Of a stretch of 64,000 bases of DNA, positions 3,815-49,075 are shown piece by piece. The translations under genes were made by a program, and so were the position numbers. Each line of letters opens with the position of its first letter. The first letter of the stretch is position 1. The notes beneath the pieces were generated by a model, which was not told the origin of the DNA, did not search any database, and saw nothing but the letters and a program-made list of their open reading frames with translations. The stretch is from contig NZ_JAJSAR010000002.1 of NCBI RefSeq assembly GCF_021729085.1, forward strand, positions 496,001-560,000, written 5' to 3'. This DNA is from Pseudohongiella sp. O18. GTDB taxonomy: Bacteria > Pseudomonadota > Gammaproteobacteria > Pseudomonadales > Pseudohongiellaceae.

Positions 3815-5128
3815 TTACTCTGCCAGACTTTCGTAAATGATATCGCGTGCCACCTCACCCATATTGGCTGCGCCAGGGCGTCGCGGGCCCTGAGCCTGAA
3901 TCATGGACAGCCAGAAAATGTCATTGACCGGATCAATCCAGAATGAGGTGCCGGCAGCGCCTGCCCAATAATAGGTGCCTGGTCCTTGTGGTGAACCGGC
4001 GGCTTGTGGATCGTAAAGCACGGCCATGTCAACGCCCCAGCCCTGTCCAGGCTGGCCGGGACCACCAATGCCGTAGCGCATGTCTTCATCACCGGTCAGG
4101 CTGTTGGTGCTCATGATGCGGACGGATTCCGGCTTCAGGATACGCACGCCATCAAGCTCGCCATTATTGACCAGCATCTGGATAAAACGTGCGTAGTCAT
4201 GAGTGGAGGAAACCAGACCGCCGCCACCAGACTCCAGTCTGTCAGCGTCCAGGTAGCTGGGTCGATCGGGGCGCTCGGCCTGCTGGGCCAGTGTATTGCG
4301 CTCAGCATCCCAGTAGTGAACCTGTGCAAAACGATCGACATCTTCCGGCAGCACATAGAAGCGTGTATCCATCATGTCCAGCGGCTCAAACAGATGCTGC
4401 CGCAGATATTCGCCAAAGCTCATGCCGGTCAGCTGCTCAACAATGTAGCCCTGGATGTCCATGCCAATAGAGTAATACCACTGCTCGCCGGGTTGTGCCA
4501 TCAGCGGGATTGCGGCGACTTTCTGGATGAGTTCATTCAGGTCGCTGGACGCCAGCACTTCCTGCTCGCGGAATGCCTGATTCGCCGGGTCATTGCCAAA
4601 CAGACCGTATGCAAAACCAGCGGTGTTGCTCATCAGCTCACGCATGGTGGGCTGGCGCTCAAGTTCTTCCAGTTCGACATTGCCATTGTTGTCGTAACTG
4701 GAAAGCACTTTCAGATTGGCAAACTCAGGGACATGCTTGCTGATCGGATCATCAAAATCCCACAGGCCCTGCTCCCAGAGCATCATCATGGCAACGCCGG
4801 TTACCGGTTTGCTCATGGAGTAAATTCGAAACAGTGAGTCTTTGGTCATGGGTGTCTGATCATCAATACTGGCGAGTCCGGCAGCCTCGAAGGTGGCGAT
4901 CTGACCATCCTTGCCCAGCATCCAGACCATGCCGGCCACGTCCTGATTCGCCACGATCTCGCGCATGGCGTCGTCCAGTCTCTCAATGCCTTCAGCAGTA
5001 AAGCCAGCCGCTTCAGCGCCAACTTCGGCCTGGGGCCAGGAGTCCGCGTGTAATGGCATTGCCAGGCAGGCTATGAATAAAGCGCTGAACAGTTTTTTGA
5101 AGCAGGGCGGCGGTGTGGGTAGTTTCAT
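3815..5128 (-). CDS. Exported serine hydrolase of the beta-lactamase (class C / EstB) family
   Basis: Secreted serine hydrolase of 437 aa. A signal peptide occupies roughly residues 10-28 (hydrophobic core LFSALFIACLAMPLHA). The catalytic SxxK is S104-M-S-K107, and a YSIG sequence supplies the second motif (Y-x-x). The third motif, usually KTG/HxG, is not obvious, as in many esterase-type members. These proteins cleave esters, D-amino-acid peptides or beta-lactams; the family as a whole is not evidence of antibiotic resistance. It is monocistronic, convergent with SDR-DUF2256, and has the terminator of the downstream-lying receptor gene behind its promoter region. Confidence 0.9.
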   Translation of the reverse strand: MKLPTPPPCFKKLFSALFIACLAMPLHADSWPQAEVGAEAAGFTAEGIERLDDAMREIVANQDVAGMVWMLGKDGQIATFEAAGLASIDDQTPMTKDSLFRIYSMSKPVTGVAMMMLWEQGLWDFDDPISKHVPEFANLKVLSSYDNNGNVELEELERQPTMRELMSNTAGFAYGLFGNDPANQAFREQEVLASSDLNELIQKVAAIPLMAQPGEQWYYSIGMDIQGYIVEQLTGMSFGEYLRQHLFEPLDMMDTRFYVLPEDVDRFAQVHYWDAERNTLAQQAERPDRPSYLDADRLESGGGGLVSSTHDYARFIQMLVNNGELDGVRILKPESVRIMSTNSLTGDEDMRYGIGGPGQPGQGWGVDMAVLYDPQAAGSPQGPGTYYWAGAAGTSFWIDPVNDIFWLSMIQAQGPRRPGAANMGEVARDIIYESLAE

Positions 5129-5232
5129 GAGTTATTCCTGGACTTTTTCTATTATTGGAATGGCTGGCTTGCCGTAGGATAACCCAAAATACGTCTATTT
5201 GTAGGGCAGCTTGGGACAGTCGGGCATTTTAC

Positions 5233-5266
5233 AAAGAAAACCCGCTCTGCATTGCTGCAGAGCGGG
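5233..5266 (-). terminator. Rho-independent terminator of the TonB receptor gene
   Basis: An 11-bp perfect stem (CCCGCTCTGCA at 5241-5251 with TGCAGAGCGGG at 5256-5266) and a 4-base loop. Read on the minus strand it is followed by TTTTCTTTG. It lies 26 bases past the stop of the receptor gene at 5292. Confidence 0.8.
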
Positions 5267-5291
5267 GCCGTTACTGCGACGGCTAAGTCAC

Positions 5292-8200
5292 CTACTCAAA
5301 GCTGAACGCTACCCGCGCATAAACCACACGTCCCAGCACATCCTGTGATTCGGCAGCGACACCGGCAATCATGCCTGTCTTTTGTGGCATACGGTCAGTC
5401 AGGTTGCGAGCGCCAATGGAGAGACTGATATCGCTGCCAAATGCTTCCAGCCCACGATAGGAATAGAACATGTCCAATTGTGTCCAGGCTCGCAGCTTGT
5501 CGGTTGGCCCGCCCCACTCAGCGCCAGGGAAGAATCGCTGAAAACTGAACTCATTGGCATCGAAGATCACTTCGTCGATGTAACGGGTGGTTGCGTTTAG
5601 CGAATGCCCACCCATCGTCCAGTTGATACGCAGATTTGCTCTGAGCTGGGGAATGGTCGGCACGGCACCAAAATCGTTGTTCTGCTTACCTACGGCCTCC
5701 ATGCGGGGCAGGTCATCGGCTAGCTGGAAGGTATAGGTGTCCATGTAGGTGGCCTGCAACTGGACACTGATGTCGCCCCAGCCGGTCAAATTCCAGTCAT
5801 CCAGGCTGAAACCGTAGTCGAGCTGAGTATCCCAGGCGCGCACCAGCATCGATGATGCATTCGAATCGCTCTGCAATATGCGATCTGGCGTTGTGATATC
5901 GCCAGGATTACGAATGATGCGTTTGTCTGAGCGAGGGTCATTAACCCAGGCTTCCAATTGGGCAATTGTCGGATAGGGGTTGGCATCCGTTGGATTGAAG
6001 CCTGTGGCGGCGCGGAAATTACGGTAGTCCGAGCGAATGATGTCCTGGGTAGTGGTGCTGACGATTCGATCGGCAAAGTCAGTCTCACTCCAGGTGATCG
6101 ACCAGGTCAGGTTGTCAAGGAGAGCCAGGTCCACACCAAATGAAAGACTGTCTGAGGTCTCCGAAGTGAGCCCTGGATTACCGGTTCGACAGGACGTGAT
6201 AAAACCCTGGAACTGAGTAAAGAGATCATCCACATTACTCAAACCGCAGCTTTCGGGTGAATTCAGCTGAGCAAGCGTTGGCACGATAAAGGCCTCGCCG
6301 CGGGTGGCGCGCACACTCAGCCAGTCTGTGGGCACATAGACCAGGCCAAACTTGTCGACCACGGCGCCTTGCCCGGTGCTGAAACTCTCATCGCGCACGG
6401 CAGCCGATACCTCCAGGTTCTCCAGTACTGGAAACGCGAGCTCGGCGAACCAGGAATTACTGAAACGGCTCTGACTGTTAGGCAGTGCCTGCACTCCGAT
6501 CAGCTGATCATTGCGTATCGATGTTGCGGTAGGGCCATCCTTGTCAGTTTCCTGGCGGCGTTGATAGCCAACTGCCATAGCGACAGGTCCCCCAGGAAGC
6601 TCAAAGTCCCCAAGCGGCACCGCGCCATTCAATATAAGATCAAACGTTTGAAGTGCATCACGGTCGTTAAGCTGATCCTGAGTAAAAATGGCATCCGCCA
6701 CGTGCTGAGGCGTTCTGAAGCGCGGATCAATCGCGCCGAACGGATTAAAACAGCTATCGACATCGTTGATGACGTCGCAATTCAATCCCTGCGCCAATGC
6801 ACCCAGGCTGAATTGCTGAGTGCTGTTGCTAACGTTGTCGTAATGACTGTAGACATAATTGGTCGTTCCCTCCCAGTCATTGAGGAAGGGGACTGCGAAA
6901 TCCAGCCCGGCTGCAAAGCGAAATGCACGCCGATCCCCATGATTGATCTGCACATCGCCATGGCGGGCCATCTCAGAGGGCAGTGTGTTGGCGGCTGATT
7001 TACCAAATGGCAGCCATTGCGATCCATTGATAGTGACATCCTCACTGAACGGTACTCCGCCCAGCGGATCGTTATCGATTGATGCAAACCGGTTATTGGC
7101 AAGCTGCACCTGACCCGACGCGTCCCTTCGCGGCAGGGGACGTCCATGGCCGTCAGTGACGATTGCTCCCGAACTATCCCTGAGGGGCTCAGCAAACAGA
7201 TCTGCGCCAGTAGAGCTTCTGGCCCGGAAGGTGTTGCCCGGCAGTTCGCCGCGTATTACGGGGATGTCGGCAGTTCTGGCGCCAGGATTGCCGGTATTGT
7301 TCCGGTTGCGTGTTACCTGTCGATTCCAGATTAACTGGGACCTGAAGCTGGTCTCAGAGTTAATATCCCAGTTCAGATTTCCATACAGCGAGGCTGTATC
7401 AAACTCTGGCTGGAAATCACGGGTATCGCCAAAGCTGAAAAAGCATCGACCACCCAGTGGATTGCCCCAGGGATTGTTTCCTGGGCTTACCTGATCCGGT
7501 TCGGTCTGATATCCGCAGCTGGGATCGACCCGGCTCCCTGCGGTGCCGGTCAGATTGCCGTTCGCATCGCGATTGGGGACCAGAAAGTTGCCCGGATTGG
7601 AGCCGCCATTGTGTGTCAGGCCTGATCGTACATAGTCAGGGCGCTCCGCCCATTCCAGAGTGGAGGCGTCAACATAGGATCCTGCCACGACGAGGTCGAC
7701 GGGGCCAAGGCTGCGTCCACCGAGGAATGAAATCTCTGACTTGCTATAGTCACCGCGGCTGTCGCCTTCTTCGAAATACTCTAGCTTGACGCCGTCGTAG
7801 GATGTATACGGGATAAGATTGACAACTCCCGCGACTGCATCCGTTCCGTACAATGCCGCAGCCCCGTCGGTTACAACCTCTATTCGTTGCAAGGCGGAAG
7901 CTGGCAGCATGGACTGTACGTTATCAGTAGCTATCCGTTTACTGTCGATCAGTGTCAACGTGGCGCGAGGTCCCAGGCCGCGCAAATTGAAATTAGAGGT
8001 AGTACTTGTGACGCCCTGAATGGAATTGGTCACAGCAGTACCGTTATTAAATGTCAGATTTTGCACAACCTGAGCCATATTGACAGTACCCTGGGCTTCC
8101 AGGTCTTCGGCATTGAGCTGAGTTACTGGTGATGCGGCATTCAGGCCTTCACTACGGCGTATGAATGATCCTGTGACAATTATCTCTTCCATCTCGGGTG

Positions 8201-8599: not shown

Positions 8600-9700
8600 A
8601 TGCAGATCGTATTGCACTATTCAGTTAGTGCACTCGCTGTCTCCCAATTGTTGTTCATGGGACTGAGCAGCCTCGTGCACTATCGTCACCAGACGCTGGC
8701 ACGCCTGATGGCGCTATACAGCGTGGGTCTGATTTTCTATATCATTCTCGTGATGCCCGTCACAGAATTTGCTCCCACGGCGGCGCAGCAAACTTTTCGA
8801 GCGTTCGCCAGTAGTACCCCATTTCTCTTGTGGTTGATCAGTCGACATCTATTCATGGACCAACATGGCACGCCGGCCTGGGCCTGGGCTACGCTAGCGG
8901 TTTATGTGAGTCTGCGAGTGATCGGCTCGATCCTGATTTCTACCACGGGCGAGCTTCCTTTTTTATCGCAGCTATTGCTTATGCAACTGCCTTTGGCAGT
9001 CATGCTCGGATTTACGGTACATGCGATATATCTGGCGCTAAAGCACTTCAATTCTGATCTTGTAGAGTCACGCAGGCGACTGAGGGGGCCTTTTGTTGTT
9101 TCCATGGGTTTAATAGTCGGTGTGATTGTCGCCTCTGGTTTTTTCTATTCCGTCCCCGGCGCTGTGCGAATTGGATTTTTTACTGTTATTTTTGCTTGTG
9201 CACTGTTTTTTAATATTGTCATCTTCCGGCTTCATCACGATTCGCCGCAACTGATCAGAAACAAGGCGGTCGGTGTGGCACATAACATCAATCTTGCTGA
9301 TTTTGAAAGTCGGTCTGATAAAGCTCTTCTGGAGCGATTAAAGTCAGCAATGGAGAAGGACCAGCTTTATACCAAACTCGGTCTAACGATTAAGGATCTG
9401 GCAATGGCGTTGGGAATTCAGGAATATCTGCTGCGGCGCTTCATAAACAAAAAAATGCACTACCGTAACTTTAACCAGTTTCTCAATGAGTATCGTATCA
9501 ACAAAGCCACCGCGCGCCTGATAGATCCCTCGGAGTTTGATACGCAGATATCCAATATCGCTTTCGAGGTTGGGTATGCCTCGTTATCTTCATTCAACAA
9601 GGCGTTTAAGGAGAAACATGGCGTCACGCCAAGTGCATTTCGAAACCAGCTTGGAAGCCAGGAGTTTGACGAAGAGCCATGGCTGACTCAACAGATGTAA
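8600..9700 (+). CDS. Membrane-anchored AraC family transcriptional regulator
   Basis: About 366 aa. The first 230 residues hold roughly seven hydrophobic helices. The C-terminal 100 residues are an AraC/XylS double helix-turn-helix: LTIKDLAMALGIQEYLLRRFIN for the first, and ISNIAFEVGYASLSSFNKAF-type sequence plus HGVTPSAFR for the second. I chose the ATG at 8600 with CAGG about six bases ahead; a TTG at 8435 would add 55 unlikely residues. Membrane AraC regulators are thought to sense an extracellular or periplasmic cue and bind DNA while membrane-bound. Divergent from the receptor gene, so it likely regulates that gene. The lipoprotein gene at 9758 may be cotranscribed. Confidence 0.9.
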   Translation: MQIVLHYSVSALAVSQLLFMGLSSLVHYRHQTLARLMALYSVGLIFYIILVMPVTEFAPTAAQQTFRAFASSTPFLLWLISRHLFMDQHGTPAWAWATLAVYVSLRVIGSILISTTGELPFLSQLLLMQLPLAVMLGFTVHAIYLALKHFNSDLVESRRRLRGPFVVSMGLIVGVIVASGFFYSVPGAVRIGFFTVIFACALFFNIVIFRLHHDSPQLIRNKAVGVAHNINLADFESRSDKALLERLKSAMEKDQLYTKLGLTIKDLAMALGIQEYLLRRFINKKMHYRNFNQFLNEYRINKATARLIDPSEFDTQISNIAFEVGYASLSSFNKAFKEKHGVTPSAFRNQLGSQEFDEEPWLTQQM

Positions 9701-9757
9701 GGAAAGCGCTGCAATTAGATAGTGAGCCGTTCACAGCATAATAATCAGGAGGTCGGA

Positions 9758-10210
9758 TTGAGATTTGATCCCCGTTTGTGGCGATTGAGAAATTTGCATT
9801 TGATCATGTTGCTGGTCGTGGGGTGCTCGGTTGCCGAGCCGCACGCAATCCGTATAGAGTCAATGGCGGACAGCAATCAGAGTTCGGCAATCGCTGTTGA
9901 TCTTGTCGCTGTAAATGATCCAGTCTTGACGTCAGAGTTGAAGTCACTGTCCGGGCCCGACTGGTTTGAGCGAAGAGCCGAACTGTTGGCTGCTCATGCA
10001 GACAGACTGTCTGTCGTCAGTCTCCAGATCGTACCCGCATACGTGGTAACTGAAGTTGAGAGACCTTCTTGGCACCGAAGTGCTGAGACAGTCTTGCTGT
10101 TTGCCAATTACCTGTCTCCAGCCGGTCAGCACGCATCGGTGCTAACCGGTTATAAGCAATTACTGATTCGCTTTGAACGCGACAGCTATCAGCTCATCGA
10201 GTCAGATTGA
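9758..10210 (+). CDS. Predicted lipoprotein of unknown function
   Basis: 150 aa from a TTG at 9758 that sits five bases after a perfect AGGAGG. A GTG at 9722 would add 12 residues but lacks such a site. The N-terminus MRFDPRLWRLRNLHLIMLLVVGC is split into a basic start and a lipobox-like LVVGC, indicating lipidation. The mature part carries SAIAVDLVAVNDPVLTSEL, GPDWFERRAELLAAH and LSVVSLQIVPA. I recall similar patterns in lipoproteins of type VI secretion gene neighbourhoods, but nothing here supports that role. Its last 22 bases overlap the 3' end of the convergent DoxX gene. Confidence 0.7.
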   Translation: MRFDPRLWRLRNLHLIMLLVVGCSVAEPHAIRIESMADSNQSSAIAVDLVAVNDPVLTSELKSLSGPDWFERRAELLAAHADRLSVVSLQIVPAYVVTEVERPSWHRSAETVLLFANYLSPAGQHASVLTGYKQLLIRFERDSYQLIESD

Positions 10211-10584
10211 AAGTTGTTAACAATCGCCGGATAGCGCAGCACAACCACTAACCACACACTGGCCAGCATCAGTGACTGAAACCAGAAACTGGTCAGCACT
10301 GGTCCGAAAAAGTTTTCGCCGCGGATGATGTGAAACAGGATGGCGCCACCCAGGTGCGCACTCAGGAACAGGGCGCCGATGATTGAAGTTCTGGGAAGCG
10401 CGTAAAGCAGTGCTGCCGTGACCTCGCCCAGCCCGATCCAGAACACCCAGGGTGCCATGGCTTCGATGCTCGCCAGCGGGTTCGCACCGAGCATTTTGGT
10501 AGAGCCTGCCAGCAGCAGGAACATCGTGGCTGGCACGACCAGCACCCACGCAACGATCCGGCGTGTCTTATGACTGTCTTGCAT
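10189..10584 (-). CDS. DoxX-like integral membrane protein
   Basis: 131 aa with four predicted transmembrane helices: VAWVLVVPATMFLLLAGSTK, WVFWIGLGEVTAALLYALP, IIGALFLSAHLGGAILFHI and SLMLASVWLVVVLRY. The layout and the AGSTKM sequence after helix 1 match the DoxX-like (DUF4870/DoxX_2) group. Function of the group is poorly defined; some members join redox complexes of the membrane. Located 22 bases downstream of the sugar dehydrogenase on the same strand, so probably an operon, which could link it to a membrane electron route for that enzyme. Tail-to-tail overlap of 22 bases with the lipoprotein gene. Confidence 0.82.
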   Translation of the reverse strand: MQDSHKTRRIVAWVLVVPATMFLLLAGSTKMLGANPLASIEAMAPWVFWIGLGEVTAALLYALPRTSIIGALFLSAHLGGAILFHIIRGENFFGPVLTSFWFQSLMLASVWLVVVLRYPAIVNNFQSDSMS

Positions 10585-15748: not shown

Positions 15749-15843
15749 TGGCGGAAGGACATGGGAGTCGAACCCACCAGACGCGCGCTGCGCATCTCAC
15801 CGGATTTGAAGTCCGGGCGCCCCACCGGGGACGATGTCCTTCC
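15749..15843 (-). tRNA. selC: tRNA-Sec (selenocysteine, anticodon UCA)
   Basis: A 95-base tRNA with encoded CCA. The minus-strand transcript begins GGAAGGACAUCGUCC and ends with GUCCUUCCGCCA, an extended 8-bp acceptor stem. The anticodon arm is GGACUUCAAAUCC with anticodon UCA, which reads UGA. A long variable arm (GAUGCGCAGCGCGCGUC region) and T-arm GGUUCGACUCC are clear, and the overall length matches bacterial selC. It starts only 12 bases beyond the selB stop codon, so it is most likely processed from the selA-selB transcript. Confidence 0.97.
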
Positions 15844-15855
15844 ATGTATGGCAAC

Positions 15856-17751
15856 TTAACACTTGCCTGGAGCGGCCTCCTCACGCCAGGCTGCCCGCAT
15901 GTATCTTCGTTCATCGCGGTAGTATGTCACAGCTGCGCGATCCAGATATTCAAGCACTTTGATGGTCAGGTTGCGGCCTATACCCGAGAGGTCACGATAC
16001 TCGGCAGCTAAAAAACTGCCGTCACTGCTATTTTGGCAAAGCTGTTGTGCCACCGCAGTAAGTTCATCCAGTTGCTCGGGCAGATAGAAGCGATTGGGAG
16101 CCACTGGCAGCACGTACCCCCATGTCTGCAGGCGCTGCATGATCGCGAGCATCTCGTCTCGCGGCAATCCCAACTGATCGCCGAGCTCTCCGACAATCGG
16201 CGGACGTAATCCCGCATTACTGATGATGTCACGAATCTGAGGCCAATACTTTTGATCCTCGACTGGCAGTTGCGGCTGATGATCAGGCAGTGCCAGGATG
16301 CTGCCGTGCCGCCGGAGCTGCCCGTCGCTCACCAATTGTTTGATGAGGGCCAGGCCGGTCGCTGGCGACAGCTCAGGTATCGCAGCTCTTAGTACAGACT
16401 GCTGGTGTGAGCCTAGCTGTTCAGCTTGTAGCAGGTGTGCCTTTCTCAGGAACTCCAGCAGCAGCAATTGTGATTTTTGCCATCGGTTTTTGCTGAGAGC
16501 CATATCACCCAGTTTTACGACATCGGACCCTGCCAATAGCTTGTTACTCTGCGATTCGCTCAAGTTCCAGCGTTGCGCGAATTTTGATATCTCAATCTCA
16601 GCCTGGTGTTGAAGCTCGATCGATAAGGCATCAGAAGCAGCACTGATACCAGCCAATTCCCGCAGCCGCGCAATAGACCCGGGCTTGCTGCGTCCGCGCT
16701 GACGCCCCTGCGGATCCAGTACCCGGCCGCCAGCCAGTGTAATATTGGCTGCAGGCTCACGCACGATCACTGTGTCACCGACAATGCTGTGCACCGGTTT
16801 GTCGAGCAACAGTTGTGCCAGCCCGGAAGATTCTTCCAGCCAGACCAGTCGACCACTGACGGCTGTGGCGCCGCTGAGAATCTGCAGTGTGCCACGGTGC
16901 ACATTTTGATTCGAGAGCACGCGTAGCTGCACATCCAGTCGCTGACTGCTCTGCACCATGTCGGTCGCCAGCAGCCAGTCACCGCGCTGTGGGTGCGCCT
17001 CACTGATGTCGCCCGTCAGGTTTAAGGCACCGCGTTGCCCGCTGACGATTTCAGTTGCAGGTTCTCCGTCGATCTGGATGCTTCGCAGGCGTAGCTCACC
17101 TTCAGTGGCGGCCAGCCGCAGTGCGATTGGTTCTTTTGAGTTCAGCCTTCCATTGATCAGCGTGCCCGTTACCACACAACCTGCCCCTGGAACGGTGAAC
17201 CGCCGGTCAATCAGGAAACGGGGTGAACCCTCTGTGGCGCGCGCCGGGTTTGTCTGGGCCAACTCCCTGACGCATGTCAGCAGTTCGCCCATCCCATAGC
17301 CGCTGACGGCATCCGTTACAACAACAGGCGAGCCTGCCAGACTGCTACCCTTAATAAGCGAACGGACAGCGTACAGGCAATCATCTAATTGTTGCGGGCT
17401 GGCGCGATCTGCAACGCTTATGACGATGATGCCGCGATCAATACCAAGCAGATCCAGCAGCGCCATATGTTCATGTGTTTGTGGCATCGGACCTTCGTCG
17501 GCGGCGACCACCAGCAGGGCGGCATGCGCACCGGCCAGACCAGCCAGCATGGTGCGGATAAATTGCAAGTGACCTGGCACGTCAACAAAGCACAGCGCGC
17601 CTGCCTGCTTGTCGTGAAGCCAGGCAAAGCCCAGATCGATGGTCAGACCACGGCGTTTTTCTTCAGCCAGCTGGTCGGTGTCTTTGCCTGTCAGAGCTTT
17701 GATGAGAGTAGTCTTGCCATGGTCGACATGACCTGCGGTAGCGATAATCAC
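15856..17751 (-). CDS. selB: Selenocysteine-specific elongation factor SelB
   Basis: GTPase that brings Sec-tRNA(Sec) to UGA codons marked by a SECIS hairpin. Start is the GTG at 17751 (VIIATAGHVDHGKT, as in E. coli MIIATAGHVDHGKT), with GGAG eight bases ahead, giving 631 aa. G1 GHVDHGKT, switch-2 DVPGH and the EF-Tu-like domains 2-3 are present, and C-terminal winged helices (LGDQLGLPRDEMLAI and similar) bind the SECIS. The G4 motif, NKxD or TKAD in relatives, reads SVAD, so the guanine-contacting lysine is replaced by valine. The GTG overlaps the selA stop by four bases (GTGA), so the two are translationally coupled. Confidence 0.96.
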   Translation of the reverse strand: MIIATAGHVDHGKTTLIKALTGKDTDQLAEEKRRGLTIDLGFAWLHDKQAGALCFVDVPGHLQFIRTMLAGLAGAHAALLVVAADEGPMPQTHEHMALLDLLGIDRGIIVISVADRASPQQLDDCLYAVRSLIKGSSLAGSPVVVTDAVSGYGMGELLTCVRELAQTNPARATEGSPRFLIDRRFTVPGAGCVVTGTLINGRLNSKEPIALRLAATEGELRLRSIQIDGEPATEIVSGQRGALNLTGDISEAHPQRGDWLLATDMVQSSQRLDVQLRVLSNQNVHRGTLQILSGATAVSGRLVWLEESSGLAQLLLDKPVHSIVGDTVIVREPAANITLAGGRVLDPQGRQRGRSKPGSIARLRELAGISAASDALSIELQHQAEIEISKFAQRWNLSESQSNKLLAGSDVVKLGDMALSKNRWQKSQLLLLEFLRKAHLLQAEQLGSHQQSVLRAAIPELSPATGLALIKQLVSDGQLRRHGSILALPDHQPQLPVEDQKYWPQIRDIISNAGLRPPIVGELGDQLGLPRDEMLAIMQRLQTWGYVLPVAPNRFYLPEQLDELTAVAQQLCQNSSDGSFLAAEYRDLSGIGRNLTIKVLEYLDRAAVTYYRDERRYMRAAWREEAAPGKC

Positions 17752-19151
17752 GCCGCTGTCTCCGGGACATAACGATGTGACCGCCACTGGCTGGCAAGGG
17801 TATCTGGTTCCTCAACGCAACGACAATCGAGCAGCACACTGTCATCGGCTATGCGACCTATGACTGGCACAGGCAGCTTTCTCAACTGGCTGGCGAGTTC
17901 GCGCAGCTCCCGACTGCGGGCGCGTTTGTTGCCCTGTTGACTGCGCAGGCGCAGTGAAGCACTGGGCAGTCGGTCCAGGGGCTGGGAACCGGAACCAATC
18001 TGGCTGAGCGTATCAGTTCGATCAACGTCGATGCTGTTGCCGGTCCAGGACCTTAGCGCAGGCAGAAGAGCTTCAACTGTCGCCCGGATGGCAGTTTGTT
18101 CCCGGGACAGCAGTCGCAGTACCGGGATTCGCTGGACGAGTGTCTCCGGGTTGGCGTAAAGTCTGAGCACGGCGGACAGGGCGGCCAGCGTGAGTTTGTC
18201 GCAGCGTAGTGCGCGTTTTAGCGGACTTTTTCGAATACGGGCAATCAGGTCTGCGCGCCCGGCTATGATGCCGGCTTGTGGTCCGCCGAGCAGTTTGTCA
18301 CCGCTGAAGGTGACCACATCGACACCCTGGGCCAGTACATCGCGAACCACTGGTTCGGCCGGCAGTCCCAGCTCCTGCATGTCGATCAAAGAGCCACTGC
18401 CCAGATCCACCACCAGGGGGATGCCATGATCGTGGGCTATCGCAGCGAGCTCCGATTCGCTCAGGCTGCTGGTGAAGCCTTGCACAGCGTAATTGCTGGT
18501 ATGTGCTTTAAGCAGCAGTGCGGTCGATTTGCCAATGGCATCGGCGAAGTCATGTTTATGTGTGCGATTGGTGGTGCCGACTTCGCGAAGTTTGCAGCCA
18601 GCGCGCCCCATGATGTCCGGCAGGCGGAATGAACCACCGATTTCGATCAGTTCCCCGCGCGAGACAATGACTTCCTTCCGCAATGCCAGGGCGTTCAGTA
18701 CCAACAGCACTGCCGCAGCGTTGTTGTTTACGACGGTAGCAGCTTCGGCGCCGGTCAGACGGCAGATCCAGTCTTCGACATGAGCGTCGCGGTCGCCGCG
18801 CTGGCCGCTGTCCAGCTCATACTCCAGGTTGCTCGCACCGATGGCGACAGCTGTCATTGCCTCGATGGCTTCTGGCGGCAGGGGCGCGCGTCCCAGATTG
18901 GTGTGAATGACAGTGCCAGTGAGATTGAAAACCGGCTTGAAGGAGGGCGTCAGCCAGCCTTCGAGGCGGGCGCGAACATCAGAGAGCAGGGATTGTTCAT
19001 CATGAATCAGGCCGTCGCGCCATCGCTGCAATCCTGAGCGCAGTGCACCCAGAACCAGCGTGCGGCCATGGCAGGCGATCAAATCTTTAACACCTGGCCA
19101 GGCCAGCGTTTTGTCCACCGAAGGTGGGCGTGAACTGGGGGCGCTACTCAC
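17748..19151 (-). CDS. selA: L-seryl-tRNA(Sec) selenium transferase SelA
   Basis: PLP enzyme converting Ser-tRNA(Sec) to Sec-tRNA(Sec) using selenophosphate. About 467 aa. NLTGTVIHTNLGRAPL and NLEYELDSGQRGDRD are family hallmarks, VVNNNAAAVLL lies before the cofactor site, and the PLP lysine is in FSGDKLLGGPQAG at about residue 286. I prefer the GTG at 19151, with GGGGG seven bases upstream, over the GTG at 19157, which is only one base from it. It begins 21 bases after the UGSC selenoprotein stop and ends overlapping selB. It needs selenophosphate from SelD, which is not in this window. Confidence 0.96.
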   Translation of the reverse strand: MSSAPSSRPPSVDKTLAWPGVKDLIACHGRTLVLGALRSGLQRWRDGLIHDEQSLLSDVRARLEGWLTPSFKPVFNLTGTVIHTNLGRAPLPPEAIEAMTAVAIGASNLEYELDSGQRGDRDAHVEDWICRLTGAEAATVVNNNAAAVLLVLNALALRKEVIVSRGELIEIGGSFRLPDIMGRAGCKLREVGTTNRTHKHDFADAIGKSTALLLKAHTSNYAVQGFTSSLSESELAAIAHDHGIPLVVDLGSGSLIDMQELGLPAEPVVRDVLAQGVDVVTFSGDKLLGGPQAGIIAGRADLIARIRKSPLKRALRCDKLTLAALSAVLRLYANPETLVQRIPVLRLLSREQTAIRATVEALLPALRSWTGNSIDVDRTDTLSQIGSGSQPLDRLPSASLRLRSQQGNKRARSRELRELASQLRKLPVPVIGRIADDSVLLDCRCVEEPDTLASQWRSHRYVPETAA

Positions 19152-19172
19152 ATCCACGCCCCCGTTTCTGGA

Positions 19173-19724
19173 TCAGCTGAGCCCGGTTGTCCCGTCGAGG
19201 TTTTGATCTGCACACAGCAGGCGCAGAATTTCACCCAAAGCCTCGTCGGCCAGGGTGCGCATTTCCGCATCGGTGCGGTTCTGTATCGGGTGCGGCACAA
19301 ATACCATGGCAGGATCGAAACCCAGCGTTTTGCATTGTGCAGCTGCCGCATCAATAAACTCAGTGGAGGCAACTCCAACTCCCGGAATCTGTCGTGACTC
19401 CAGATCGGCTATGTCATGCATACAGCACGACGTACACGATCCTCAGTCAGCCAGACCTTCTACCAGTACATCCACTTCGCCCGCTATCTGCTGCTTGAGC
19501 TCAGTCGGGGCGGGGCGGGTGAACGTGGGTTTACTGTAGCGTTTTACCGAAACGCCGATTGCCGCCAGCTGTTCCTCGATACGATCAAGAAAGACATTGC
19601 CGCGCGGCTTGGAAATATCCAGCAGACCAACGACTTTGCCTTCCAGATTATCAGGTCTTGGCAGTCTCGCCCGCTCGGCCGGGGCGTTCTCGGCCGTCGG
19701 ATCCAGCAGGATGGTATCGTTCAT
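19173..19724 (-). CDS. UGSC-motif selenoprotein read through an in-frame UGA
   Basis: A 183-residue protein whose residue 94 is encoded by TGA at 19443-19445. Reading TGA as Sec joins two in-frame segments: residues 1-93, ending VDVLVEGLAD, and the rest, beginning U-G-S-C-T-S-C-C-M-H-D. That is the hallmark of the UGSC family, whose non-seleno relatives have Cys at this place. The N-terminal half has a GKVVGLLDISKPRGNVFLDRI strand-loop, possibly Rossmann-like; the C-terminal half holds GVASTEFIDAAAAQC and FVPHPIQNRT. The predicted role is redox or thiol chemistry, not established. ATG overlaps the upstream gene's stop (ATGA), with GAGAGG ahead. selA, selB and selC follow on the same strand. 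Confidence 0.9.
19414..19439 (-). promoter_or_regulatory. Candidate bacterial SECIS hairpin
   Basis: Begins three bases after the UGA of the UGSC gene, on the mRNA strand. UCGUGUA (19439-19433) pairs with UAUGCGUA-type sequence UGCAUGA/U (19420-19414) in a seven-pair stem including two G-U pairs. A one-base mismatch, two further wobble pairs and a six-base apical loop CGUGCU follow. The loop lies about 14-19 bases after UGA, inside the range seen for bacterial SECIS elements. It was folded by eye only. Confidence 0.5.
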
Positions 19725-21157
19725 AATGTGACCTCTCGTGTGACAGGTGAAGAGCCTACCGGGCCAGAGGCGGCCCAGCCAGCGATGATCGCAGAAAACA
19801 GGCCGGCTGTGCCACCGGCGCGGACAATCAAAAGGCCACCCGGTCGAAACTTGGGGACCTGTTTATCTTTGAATTTTTCCGGAATTCCCTCGGCAATGCC
19901 ACCGGCACCAATGACCAGTCTCTCACCGGGTGCCAGCAGCAGTTCTTCCAGCCGCTCTCGCAGGCGCTGTTTGGACCAGCCAGCTTCAATAAAAATACGG
20001 GCATGATCGGGTGCCACCACCAGCACGGCATCGCCCGCCATGGCCAGTTTGACATTATCCACCGCCCGCAATGATTCGGCGATAGACCGGGCCAGCGACT
20101 CGGGGTCGCGGGATTTCTGATCAATGATGCCCTGCACACCCTCGCCGGGGAAGATGGTGACAGCCGAACGGCCGGCTGGAATACCGCGTTCCTGCGCCAG
20201 TGGCAGCCAGTCGCTGTCTTCGGCCTCCGCAAAGCAGAAGGTGTATTTGCCGGGATTGCCGAGTGTGGCCCGGTCAATTTCCCCGGGTCGGCCGCCGCCG
20301 ACATTACGTATGATCAGTTGTAGCGCCCGGCCAATCGTTGCGTTGGCGCGATTACCCTGTCCCAGGGCATTATTGCCGGAATTCATGCCGATGGCTTTGG
20401 CGATCGGGCCATTGACCATGATCATGGGACTGCCGAACATGGTGGTGCAGATCAGGCCATGCAGGCCAAAGTCATCATCCAGCGCCGCCTCCAGCGCTGC
20501 CAGCAGCACCGGCATGTATTCGGGTTTGCAGCCTGCCATGACGGCGTTGATGGCGACTTTTTCAACGGTGCACGGGACCAGGTCTGGCGGCATGATGCCA
20601 ATGACTTCCTGTGGGTCACGCTGAGTGCCTTTTAACATGCGCAGGACGCGCACCGCTGTTGGCGGCACCACTGGCAGACCATCACTCCAGCCGCGAGCAT
20701 AACAGGCTTCTATGGCATCATCTTCGGCGCTGACATCAATCTCGCGCGATTGCAGCTTTACATCGCCAAACGCCAGTTCGAGCTTCTCCGCGATGCCAGG
20801 TTCCAGCGTTTTAGAGCCGCAACCGGGGCGCATGACTGGCAGCTCTTCACCAAGGTCAGTGAGCCCGCTGATCGCCCGCCATTCCGCCTTGTCCCAGCCG
20901 TAAGTGCGCGCTGTTTCCCGCCCATTTTCAAAACGAATCAGGGTTGGGACAAACTCGGTGGTCAGACGCCACGAGTGTTCCAGGCTCTGGTCGAAGTGAG
21001 TGCCCGGCAGGCTGGCGGCAAATGCAGGGTCATCCTGGACGAGCACCTGAAGCGGGCCAGCGGCGGCGAGATCAGTCAGCAGTGGTTCGATCAGTCGGCA
21101 GGTAGGACAGTCTGCCTTGGCAACAACAACGAGGCCATCGGCTGGTAGTGAAGTCAT
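19721..21157 (-). CDS. Thioredoxin-like domain fused to a 'DGLPVVPPT' domain; UGSC partner
   Basis: 478 aa, cytoplasmic by lack of a signal peptide. Residues 1-105 form a thioredoxin fold with active site ADCPTC and a late VPTLIRFENG, the cis-proline strand. Residues from about 150 are a second domain beginning ACYARGWSDGLPVVPPTAVRV. It has conserved GCKPEYMPVLLAAL, FGSPMIMVNGP, a Gly/Asn-rich NSGNNALGQGNRAN and a closing KFRPGGLLIVRAGG. I recognise this second domain only as one found near UGSC proteins; its reaction is unknown. Start ATG with AAGGCAG upstream. The stop overlaps the UGSC start by four bases. Probable electron donor or scaffold for the selenoprotein. Confidence 0.8.
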   Translation of the reverse strand: MTSLPADGLVVVAKADCPTCRLIEPLLTDLAAAGPLQVLVQDDPAFAASLPGTHFDQSLEHSWRLTTEFVPTLIRFENGRETARTYGWDKAEWRAISGLTDLGEELPVMRPGCGSKTLEPGIAEKLELAFGDVKLQSREIDVSAEDDAIEACYARGWSDGLPVVPPTAVRVLRMLKGTQRDPQEVIGIMPPDLVPCTVEKVAINAVMAGCKPEYMPVLLAALEAALDDDFGLHGLICTTMFGSPMIMVNGPIAKAIGMNSGNNALGQGNRANATIGRALQLIIRNVGGGRPGEIDRATLGNPGKYTFCFAEAEDSDWLPLAQERGIPAGRSAVTIFPGEGVQGIIDQKSRDPESLARSIAESLRAVDNVKLAMAGDAVLVVAPDHARIFIEAGWSKQRLRERLEELLLAPGERLVIGAGGIAEGIPEKFKDKQVPKFRPGGLLIVRAGGTAGLFSAIIAGWAASGPVGSSPVTREVTL

Positions 21158-48588: not shown

Positions 48589-48704
48589 TGTGCAATCTCA
48601 CCCGAGTGCGTCATGTGAAATCACGCAGGCAGAGATGGCGGCAACAGAAAGAACCACGGGCAGGCCGGGGGAAGCGTCTTTCCGCAGCACTGCCCTCCGC
48701 AGCG

Positions 48705-48935
48705 TGTCGTTGGCATCAGGCCGGTCTCCGGGCTTGCAAGTCATAATCGTTCGAAACAGAACGTTATCAAGCAGTATCGCCTTCCCGTCATTATCGCCGT
48801 CTGGCACTTTTGACAGTGGCATTGTGATACAGCTTACTTGCTTACCGTTGCGGGGGCAGCGTTGGCATAGACCTGATTGTGCGTCGCACCAACTTCCCGT
48901 TTAATTCCGGGGTCACTGAGGACCACGGAACACCT
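48705..48935 (-). promoter_or_regulatory. Cobalamin riboswitch controlling btuB
   Basis: On the minus strand the conserved blocks appear in order: AAACGGGAA near 48905, CTGCCCCCGCAACGGTAAGC (48859-48840), GCCACTG (48820-48814), GGGAAGGC (48786-48779) and the B12-box end AAGCCCGGAGACCGGCC (48735-48719). These are the signatures of the adenosylcobalamin riboswitch. The 116 bases to the btuB ATG hold an expression platform that I cannot fold with certainty. Translation of btuB is expected to fall when cobalamin is plentiful. Confidence 0.95.
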
Positions 48936-49075
48936 GAAGCGGCGCCAATGTTAGGTGAATGCGGCGCATTAGGCAAATTGAATCGTAGATGCACTGGCGC
49001 TGGCAGAGGCGTTAAGCTTGACGTCCATCCGGTTGGCATCGGAAACTGAATGTTCACCTATCTGTCGGAGAGAGC

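Follow-up and report, generated by a model that had tools for sequence, protein, structure and literature searches.

A UGSC-family selenoprotein gene of Pseudohongiella sp. O18 and its near-constant partner, a possible two-component reductase

Introduction

The UGSC family of selenoproteins and its motif had been published by 2008 at the latest (PMC2398784), and a member of it, found together with an upstream partner gene on the minus strand of a 64,000-nt stretch of Pseudohongiella sp. O18 (assembly GCF_021729085.1, contig NZ_JAJSAR010000002.1, positions 496,001 to 560,000; this whole stretch is termed the window), was analyzed here. The Global Ocean Sampling (GOS) aquatic survey counted 255 selenocysteine (Sec) and 21 Cys members and placed the family among the most abundant selenoprotein families there (PMC2398784), a 2016 survey included UGSC-containing proteins among bacterial selenoproteins (PMC5029168), UGSC-motif selenoproteins were mentioned in Geodermatophilaceae, whose tRNA-Sec has the anticodon CUA (PMC5330540), and a 2026 review listed the family among selenoproteins nearly all of whose functions were largely uncharacterised (PMC13188914). 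The other systems used for comparison were glycine reductase, in which selenoether cleavage is coupled to selenenylsulfide formation with thioredoxin as the reductant overall, and D-proline reductase, for which thioredoxin was ruled out as partner (same source for both: PMC10298544). No link between UGSC and protein B of these reductases was found in the available text of literature naming both UGSC and glycine reductase.

Because family and motif have been published for so long, the window gene is, judged by its sequence, a new member of a described selenoprotein family and not a new family. Its novelty as a selenoprotein is low, and the part of interest is the functional lead, which matters because the family is abundant in the GOS survey yet largely uncharacterised in function according to the 2026 review. 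The lead, to which we give about an even chance, is that the UGSC selenoprotein forms with its partner a two-component, thioredoxin-fed reductase of which it would be the catalytic subunit.

Results

The UGSC gene and its Sec codon

19173..19724, minus strand: UGSC-family selenoprotein gene (183 aa, predicted Sec94, motif U94-G-S-C97; matches to PF24696 and NF041046)
19445-19443, minus strand: in-frame UGA, read as Sec94 (TGA in 64/64 relatives from the genome_contigs scan; Cys codon in several distant homologues)

A sequence-only reading of the window had proposed here a UGSC gene split by an in-frame UGA; its coordinates were exact, and the strand, which it did not name, was the minus strand. 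The plus-strand reading of 19173-19724 was rejected, as it yielded no sensible protein. Minus-strand translation confirmed two in-frame segments that, with the UGA read as Sec, give a 183-residue protein: it started with ATG at 19724, met the UGA followed by GSCTSCC, and ended at a terminal stop (19175-19173) that was TGA too. The two fragments that automatic callers were expected to report were both present in the open reading frame (ORF) list under table 11, namely 93 aa (19443-19724) and 82 aa (19173-19421). The joined protein matched (i) Pfam PF24696 "UGSC family" (E=1e-40, 140.1 bits against a cut-off of 25) over residues 6-171, covering both sides of the UGA, and (ii) NCBIfam NF041046 "UGSC family (seleno)protein" (145.1 bits against a cut-off of 125), in agreement with the family assigned from the letters alone.

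In addition to the 64 relatives listed above, 56 near genomes yielded 19 UGSC matches in 18 genomes, with one TGA in each match. Cys stood at the Sec position in the proteobacterial genomes G195, G329, and G554 (G and L numbers are our handles for genomes and loci) and in seven of the eight plasmid loci L100-L107, L100 having TGA; the G329 gene, with Cys at the motif and TGA elsewhere, was spread over two frames and may be broken. Alignment A1 consisted of the window protein and 42 representatives of 93 UGSC entries (85% clustering), alignments A3 and A4 (for structure models) had 35/43 and 21/30 rows, and A7, A9, and A10 were hand-picked sets of 34, 17 (of 30 found), and 29 sequences. The Sec/Cys, G, S, and C columns of the motif were invariant throughout A1 (Sec written as C), and Sec or Cys at the UGA position, the conservation on which the Sec reading had been staked beforehand, was thus found in 43/43 members.

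UGSC was found in 75/76 genomes of the order of G191, with up to six copies in one genome. When an in-frame UGA was sought in three families (PF24696, SelD, and Fdh-alpha) of the own genome, one UGSC match with TGA was obtained, and none of the best SelD or Fdh-alpha-like matches contained one. With this query no UGSC relative was recovered from viral contigs, and searches of solved structures by sequence gave no convincing match. The foreseen misannotation is real: on Acidovorax plasmid p2-T1, the record cuts the TGA-containing UGSC gene off at the UGA and lists the 291-nt piece as a "hypothetical protein", and the window gene is itself a clear example of a gene halved by standard reading.

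Hairpin and codon usage 3' of the UGA

19413..19431, minus strand: SECIS-like (selenocysteine insertion sequence-like) hairpin from RNA folding, with a 7-bp stem GUCGUGC/GCAUGAC and loop UGUAU (19424-19420)

Bacterial SECIS elements are hairpins on the 3' side of the UGA whose first two loop bases include a G. In the window, the first 45 nt from the UGA folded into a structure topped by the 7-bp hairpin, with 18 nt between UGA and loop, and the loop UGUAU agreed with this consensus. The second loop base was G in 82/83 distinct Sec sequences, as in the window. The stem formed all seven pairs in 45 of these 83, six in 34, five in three, and three in one; among 11 distinct Cys sequences, it formed seven pairs in one, six in two, and five in five. 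Measured against synonymous-codon shuffles, folding 3' of the UGA was more stable in the Sec genes (mean z -1.5, 108 distinct regions), and the Cys-homologue regions were not more stable than their shuffles (mean z -0.18, n=11).

Codon 7 after the UGA displayed a marked bias across the 83 Sec sequences: UGU in 48, AGU in 33, GGU in one, and ACC in one, never UGC or a Ser codon other than AGU. It was UGU or AGU in 0/11 Cys homologues. In the partner genes, UGU made up 184/898 Cys codons (20%) and AGU 153/2596 Ser codons (6%), some genes being counted repeatedly, and the Cys codons at positions 3 and 6 after the UGA were mostly UGC (65/83 and 77/80, respectively). Because the amino acid would permit UGC or other Ser codons, the bias at codon 7 suggests that the RNA itself is constrained.

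Sec machinery in the same cluster

17748..19157, minus strand: selA (selenocysteine synthase), an ORF which we take to be selA from recognition of its sequence (tblastn homologue in 52/64 genome_contigs loci)
15856..17787, minus strand: selB (Sec-specific elongation factor), TIGR00475 (tblastn homologue in 54/64 genome_contigs loci)
15749..15843, minus strand: selC (tRNA-Sec, anticodon UCA) by ARAGORN and Rfam RF01852 (83.2 bits)

As the sequence-only reading had stated, selA, selB, and selC lay downstream of the UGSC gene, and the ORF list, ARAGORN, and Rfam placed all three on the same strand as it. The selB match to TIGR00475 was over the cut-off (E=1.2e-105, window 15901-17751), and a selD gene was located elsewhere in the own genome, its matched stretch having no in-frame stop; the host Sec gene set selA, selB, selC, and selD was thus present, selA by recognition. 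The earlier judgment that readthrough is credible is supported by the hairpin, the Sec machinery in the same cluster, selD, and the Sec/Cys alternation.

A selA or selB homologue lay in the same stretch in 58/64 genome_contigs loci, some of whose contigs end early. SelB over the cut-off was found in 17/18 near genomes with UGSC (the exception, G020, being a fragmented genome) versus 5/38 without, and within the own genus in 10/10 with UGSC versus 0/5 without; the corresponding Fisher p values, 4e-9 and 3e-4, ignore shared ancestry and the location of selB in the same cluster. Across the Sec-form genomes tested, SelB was over the cut-off in 10/11 (the exception being the fragmented G552), and among Cys-form genomes in 1/3 (G554).

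As a side observation, the GTG start of selA was in frame with the UGSC gene, five codons past its terminal UGA (19157-19175, minus strand). By coordinates, this frame sharing was present in L020 and L021 and absent from L023, and the coincidence is therefore probably chance. The terminal stop was UGA in 95/135 Sec-form UGSC entries (repeats included). The same window also contained a cobalamin riboswitch (RF00174, 105.9 bits) at 48702-48952 on the minus strand.

The upstream partner

19721..21157, minus strand: upstream partner gene (478 aa), whose stop overlaps the UGSC start (ATGA)
20811..21157, minus strand: N-terminal domain of the partner, thioredoxin-like with CPTC, assigned by Foldseek and having no Pfam match at 1e-3
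19724..20740, minus strand: C-terminal domain of the partner, here labeled PC (about 330 aa; conserved C210 and C308)

PC and UGSC formed a near-constant pair. A PC match was found in 152/153 loci with UGSC (some loci repeat the same gene), and the lone locus without it, L042, was a 3-kb contig with UGSC at its edge. In 153/154 entries, the nearest PC shared the strand of UGSC and its domain edge was no more than 192 nt from that of UGSC, upstream in 141 and downstream in 12. Within the genome_contigs loci, PC and a thioredoxin-like domain resembling the CPTC domain of the window were each present in 63/64; the latter domain was absent from many distant members, e.g., plasmid loci L100-L107. 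As an observation on its own, the Sec-form UGSC of L100 (Acidovorax sp. T1 plasmid p2-T1, IncP, typed conjugative; 5001-7500) continued in frame into PC.

Cys210 and Cys308 of PC were conserved in 33/34 and 32/34 sequences of A7, respectively. Family searches assigned PC to no Pfam or NCBIfam family and gave no coherent family match, PADLOC gave no match for the partner at E<=1, and no PC of 34 members matched a GrdE/PrdA-like pyruvoyl model at E<=1, a search limited to PC. The model of the whole partner was moderate (pLDDT 79.2, pTM 0.67), and thioredoxins dominated its Foldseek matches listed from rank 7 onward (E about 3e-3 to 1.5e-2). A kinship of PC with class I fumarases was considered, as six Foldseek matches had E<=1e-3 (best 3.1e-5), but TM (template modeling) scores were low (about 0.2) and profile comparison with four fumarases of relatives gave nothing (E=0.41), so it is not claimed.

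Fold of UGSC and relation to protein B

The AlphaFold2 model of UGSC (35 rows, Cys for Sec) was a confident five-stranded alpha/beta fold (pLDDT 91.8, pTM 0.85), in which residue 94 separated the third strand (86-92) from helix 95-110 and Cys97 followed three positions later. The best 50 of 1868 Foldseek matches were flavodoxin-like, FMN-reductase (flavin mononucleotide), and other alpha/beta folds with TM scores of 0.36-0.47 by query length. A thioredoxin fold of UGSC was not borne out by the predicted model, no thioredoxin being among those 50.

The sequence comparison was also applied to UGSC and the protein B families. Of the 43 aligned UGSC members, 27 matched NCBIfam GrdB at E<=1, 18 GrdF, four GrdH, four PrdB, and four the general protein B model, the best E value to GrdB being 5.3e-4; in a second UGSC set, 14/29 matched GrdB (best 1.1e-3). 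The window protein itself reached E=0.079 against GrdB, with 11.9 bits against a cut-off of 602.2. With curated scores so far off, these profile matches place UGSC outside the protein B family. From proteobacterial genomes we gathered 30 PrdB-like proteins, Sec forms among them, and aligned 17; at E<=1, all 17 were recognised both by the PrdB model (best 3.7e-37) and by the protein B model, and the UGSC model matched one of them (E=0.012). Profile-profile comparison of UGSC with these proteins gave E=6.9e-5 and an hhalign probability of 63% over about 60 columns, with UxxC on UxxC; control profile pairs without expected kinship gave E=0.098, 0.41, 0.57, and 0.39. We consider it likely, though not proven, that UGSC is distantly related to the Sec region of protein B from the glycine and D-proline reductases.

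Two observations concern protein B genes themselves: in L152 (G451:C61), a PrdB-like gene with an in-frame UGA (9486-10259, plus strand) shared a 10.5-kb stretch with two pairs of UGSC and partner genes, and GRDB-family matches (E<=0.001) occurred in 52/76 genomes of the order of G191.

Genomic settings of distant members

Neighbours of distant UGSC genes are cited only if named by Pfam or by the database record, because our own gene calling gave antisense shadow ORFs in GC-rich loci. Fourteen of 15 plasmid matches were examined, three of the 14 were unannotated, and the settings come from the remaining 11; Pfam was applied to ten hand-picked proteins of the proteobacterial settings, eight of them neighbours. 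Redox genes were represented by trxB annotated near Cys-type UGSC on plasmids of Roseovarius THAF8, Arthrobacter ERGS1:01 (with trxA), and Variovorax SRS16, by an NAD(P)/FAD-dependent oxidoreductase in Variovorax boronicumulans and Haloterrigena, and by a Pyr_redox_2 protein (Pfam), accompanied by a dicarboxylate symporter, near the Cys form of G195. Recurrent plasmid neighbours were coenzyme A (CoA) transferases, isocitrate lyase/phosphoenolpyruvate mutase-type enzymes, and parts of TRAP or tripartite tricarboxylate transporters. Near other proteobacterial UGSC genes, Pfam named a TctC receptor, an AMP-binding enzyme, an enoyl-CoA hydratase, a luciferase-like protein, and an acyl-CoA dehydrogenase. 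Cys-form UGSC genes on haloarchaeal and actinobacterial plasmids likewise lay beside metabolic genes. Taken together, these settings suggest organic-acid metabolism and fix no single substrate.

Discussion

The preferred explanation of these data is a two-component reductase with UGSC as its catalytic subunit, and we infer the recoding in the cell, the electron flow, and the reductive chemistry as follows. SelB and tRNA-Sec would decode the UGA as Sec94, aided by the hairpin immediately 3' of it; the selenolate would attack a small organic substrate bound by the PC domain of the partner; Cys97 would resolve the adduct to give a selenenylsulfide; and the thioredoxin-like CPTC domain of the partner, supplied by thioredoxin reductase, would reduce this selenenylsulfide, in a chemistry akin to that of glycine/D-proline reductase protein B. 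A further-reaching proposal, offered tentatively and at well below an even chance, is that UGSC and PC make up an unrecognised class of selenium-dependent reductases: a minimal relative of the Sec domain found in protein B of Stickland reductases, standing alone as a protein and paired with a new substrate-binding subunit, driven by thioredoxin, cleaving a bond in organic acids reductively, spread on plasmids, expanded to several copies per genome within one order of proteobacteria, and existing as Cys forms in haloarchaea and actinobacteria.

Several results weigh against this reductase model. For the recoding, covariation in the hairpin was thin, with five double-change cells, all at the loop-closing pair (C-G, U-A, and G-C); at least one doubly changed pair arose in 234/500 shuffles too, and the number is hence not unusual; and sliding the register by +2 gave a higher covariation score, but 49.9% pairing compared with 92.4% for the hairpin register. 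The association of SelB with UGSC in the genus may go back to one event in which a single gene cluster was gained or lost. For the kinship with protein B, the best Foldseek matches of UGSC were generic alpha/beta folds, the hhalign result was weak at 63% and about 60 columns and lower still on reversal (E=5e-4, 31%) and in an earlier smaller set (E=0.0019, 14%), Pfam GRDB was not among the 17 families matched by the 43 UGSC members, and a PrdB-like profile built from four sequences recovered no protein B structure from the PDB by sequence. For the partner, PC resembled neither protein B nor any of the reductase subunit models.

Three other explanations were weighed. That the UGA is a true stop, the locus being a pseudogene, a sequencing error, or two separate proteins, agrees with the two ORFs given by table 11, but is very improbable given the same UGA in all 64 relatives with Cys in that column elsewhere, a family profile that spans the UGA, and the hairpin with its codon constraint. 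A genuine UGSC selenoprotein could instead be a general thioredoxin-type thiol-disulfide oxidoreductase with no small-molecule substrate, as the literature suggests; the UxxC motif and the thioredoxin-like domain of the partner fit such a role, and we regard it as possible but doubtful, since the confident UGSC model is a five-stranded alpha/beta fold with no thioredoxin among its best Foldseek matches, and a substrate is favoured by the near-constant partner and by the metabolic genes in the surroundings.

If UGSC served selenium homeostasis or sensed the supply of Sec, this would account for the clustering with selA-selB-selC, both in the frequency of selA or selB homologues in the same stretch and in the SelB co-occurrence within the genus. 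Such a role is nevertheless unlikely, in view of the near-universal and multicopy presence of UGSC in the order of G191, of the single-contig genomes G191 and G462 (two and three listed UGSC copies, respectively), in which selB lay more than 300 kb from every copy, and of the Cys forms beside metabolic genes on haloarchaeal and actinobacterial plasmids. Under the reductase model, the near-constant partner, the redox supply, and the possible protein B kinship would replace "function unknown" by a single system of two proteins open to expression and assay.

Comparison with known systems

The window gene and the UGSC family (PF24696/NF041046) shared scores above the curated cut-offs, the UGSC motif, and the occurrence of Sec or Cys forms, with no essential difference; the window gene was clustered with selA-selB-selC and with a partner having a thioredoxin-like domain. 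The UGSC/Unknown_1 fusion of the GOS study joined UGSC to another domain (PMC2398784), and in Acidovorax p2-T1 and Variovorax boronicumulans UGSC and PC likewise shared a reading frame.

UGSC and protein B of the glycine, sarcosine, betaine, and D-proline reductases (GrdB/GrdF/GrdH and PrdB) shared an equally placed UxxC after a D-hydrophobic stretch, followed by LExxGI(P), and the HP of UGSC aligned over the FPLG/FELG of PrdB-like proteins, but the two systems differed in composition: UGSC had 183 aa, its constant partner belonged to another, unnamed family, and PC was not recognised as a GrdE/PrdA-like partner. Although no pyruvoyl-type subunit was recognised in these searches of PC, UGSC, PC, and the thioredoxin-like domain together would provide the parts for chemistry like that of glycine reductase.
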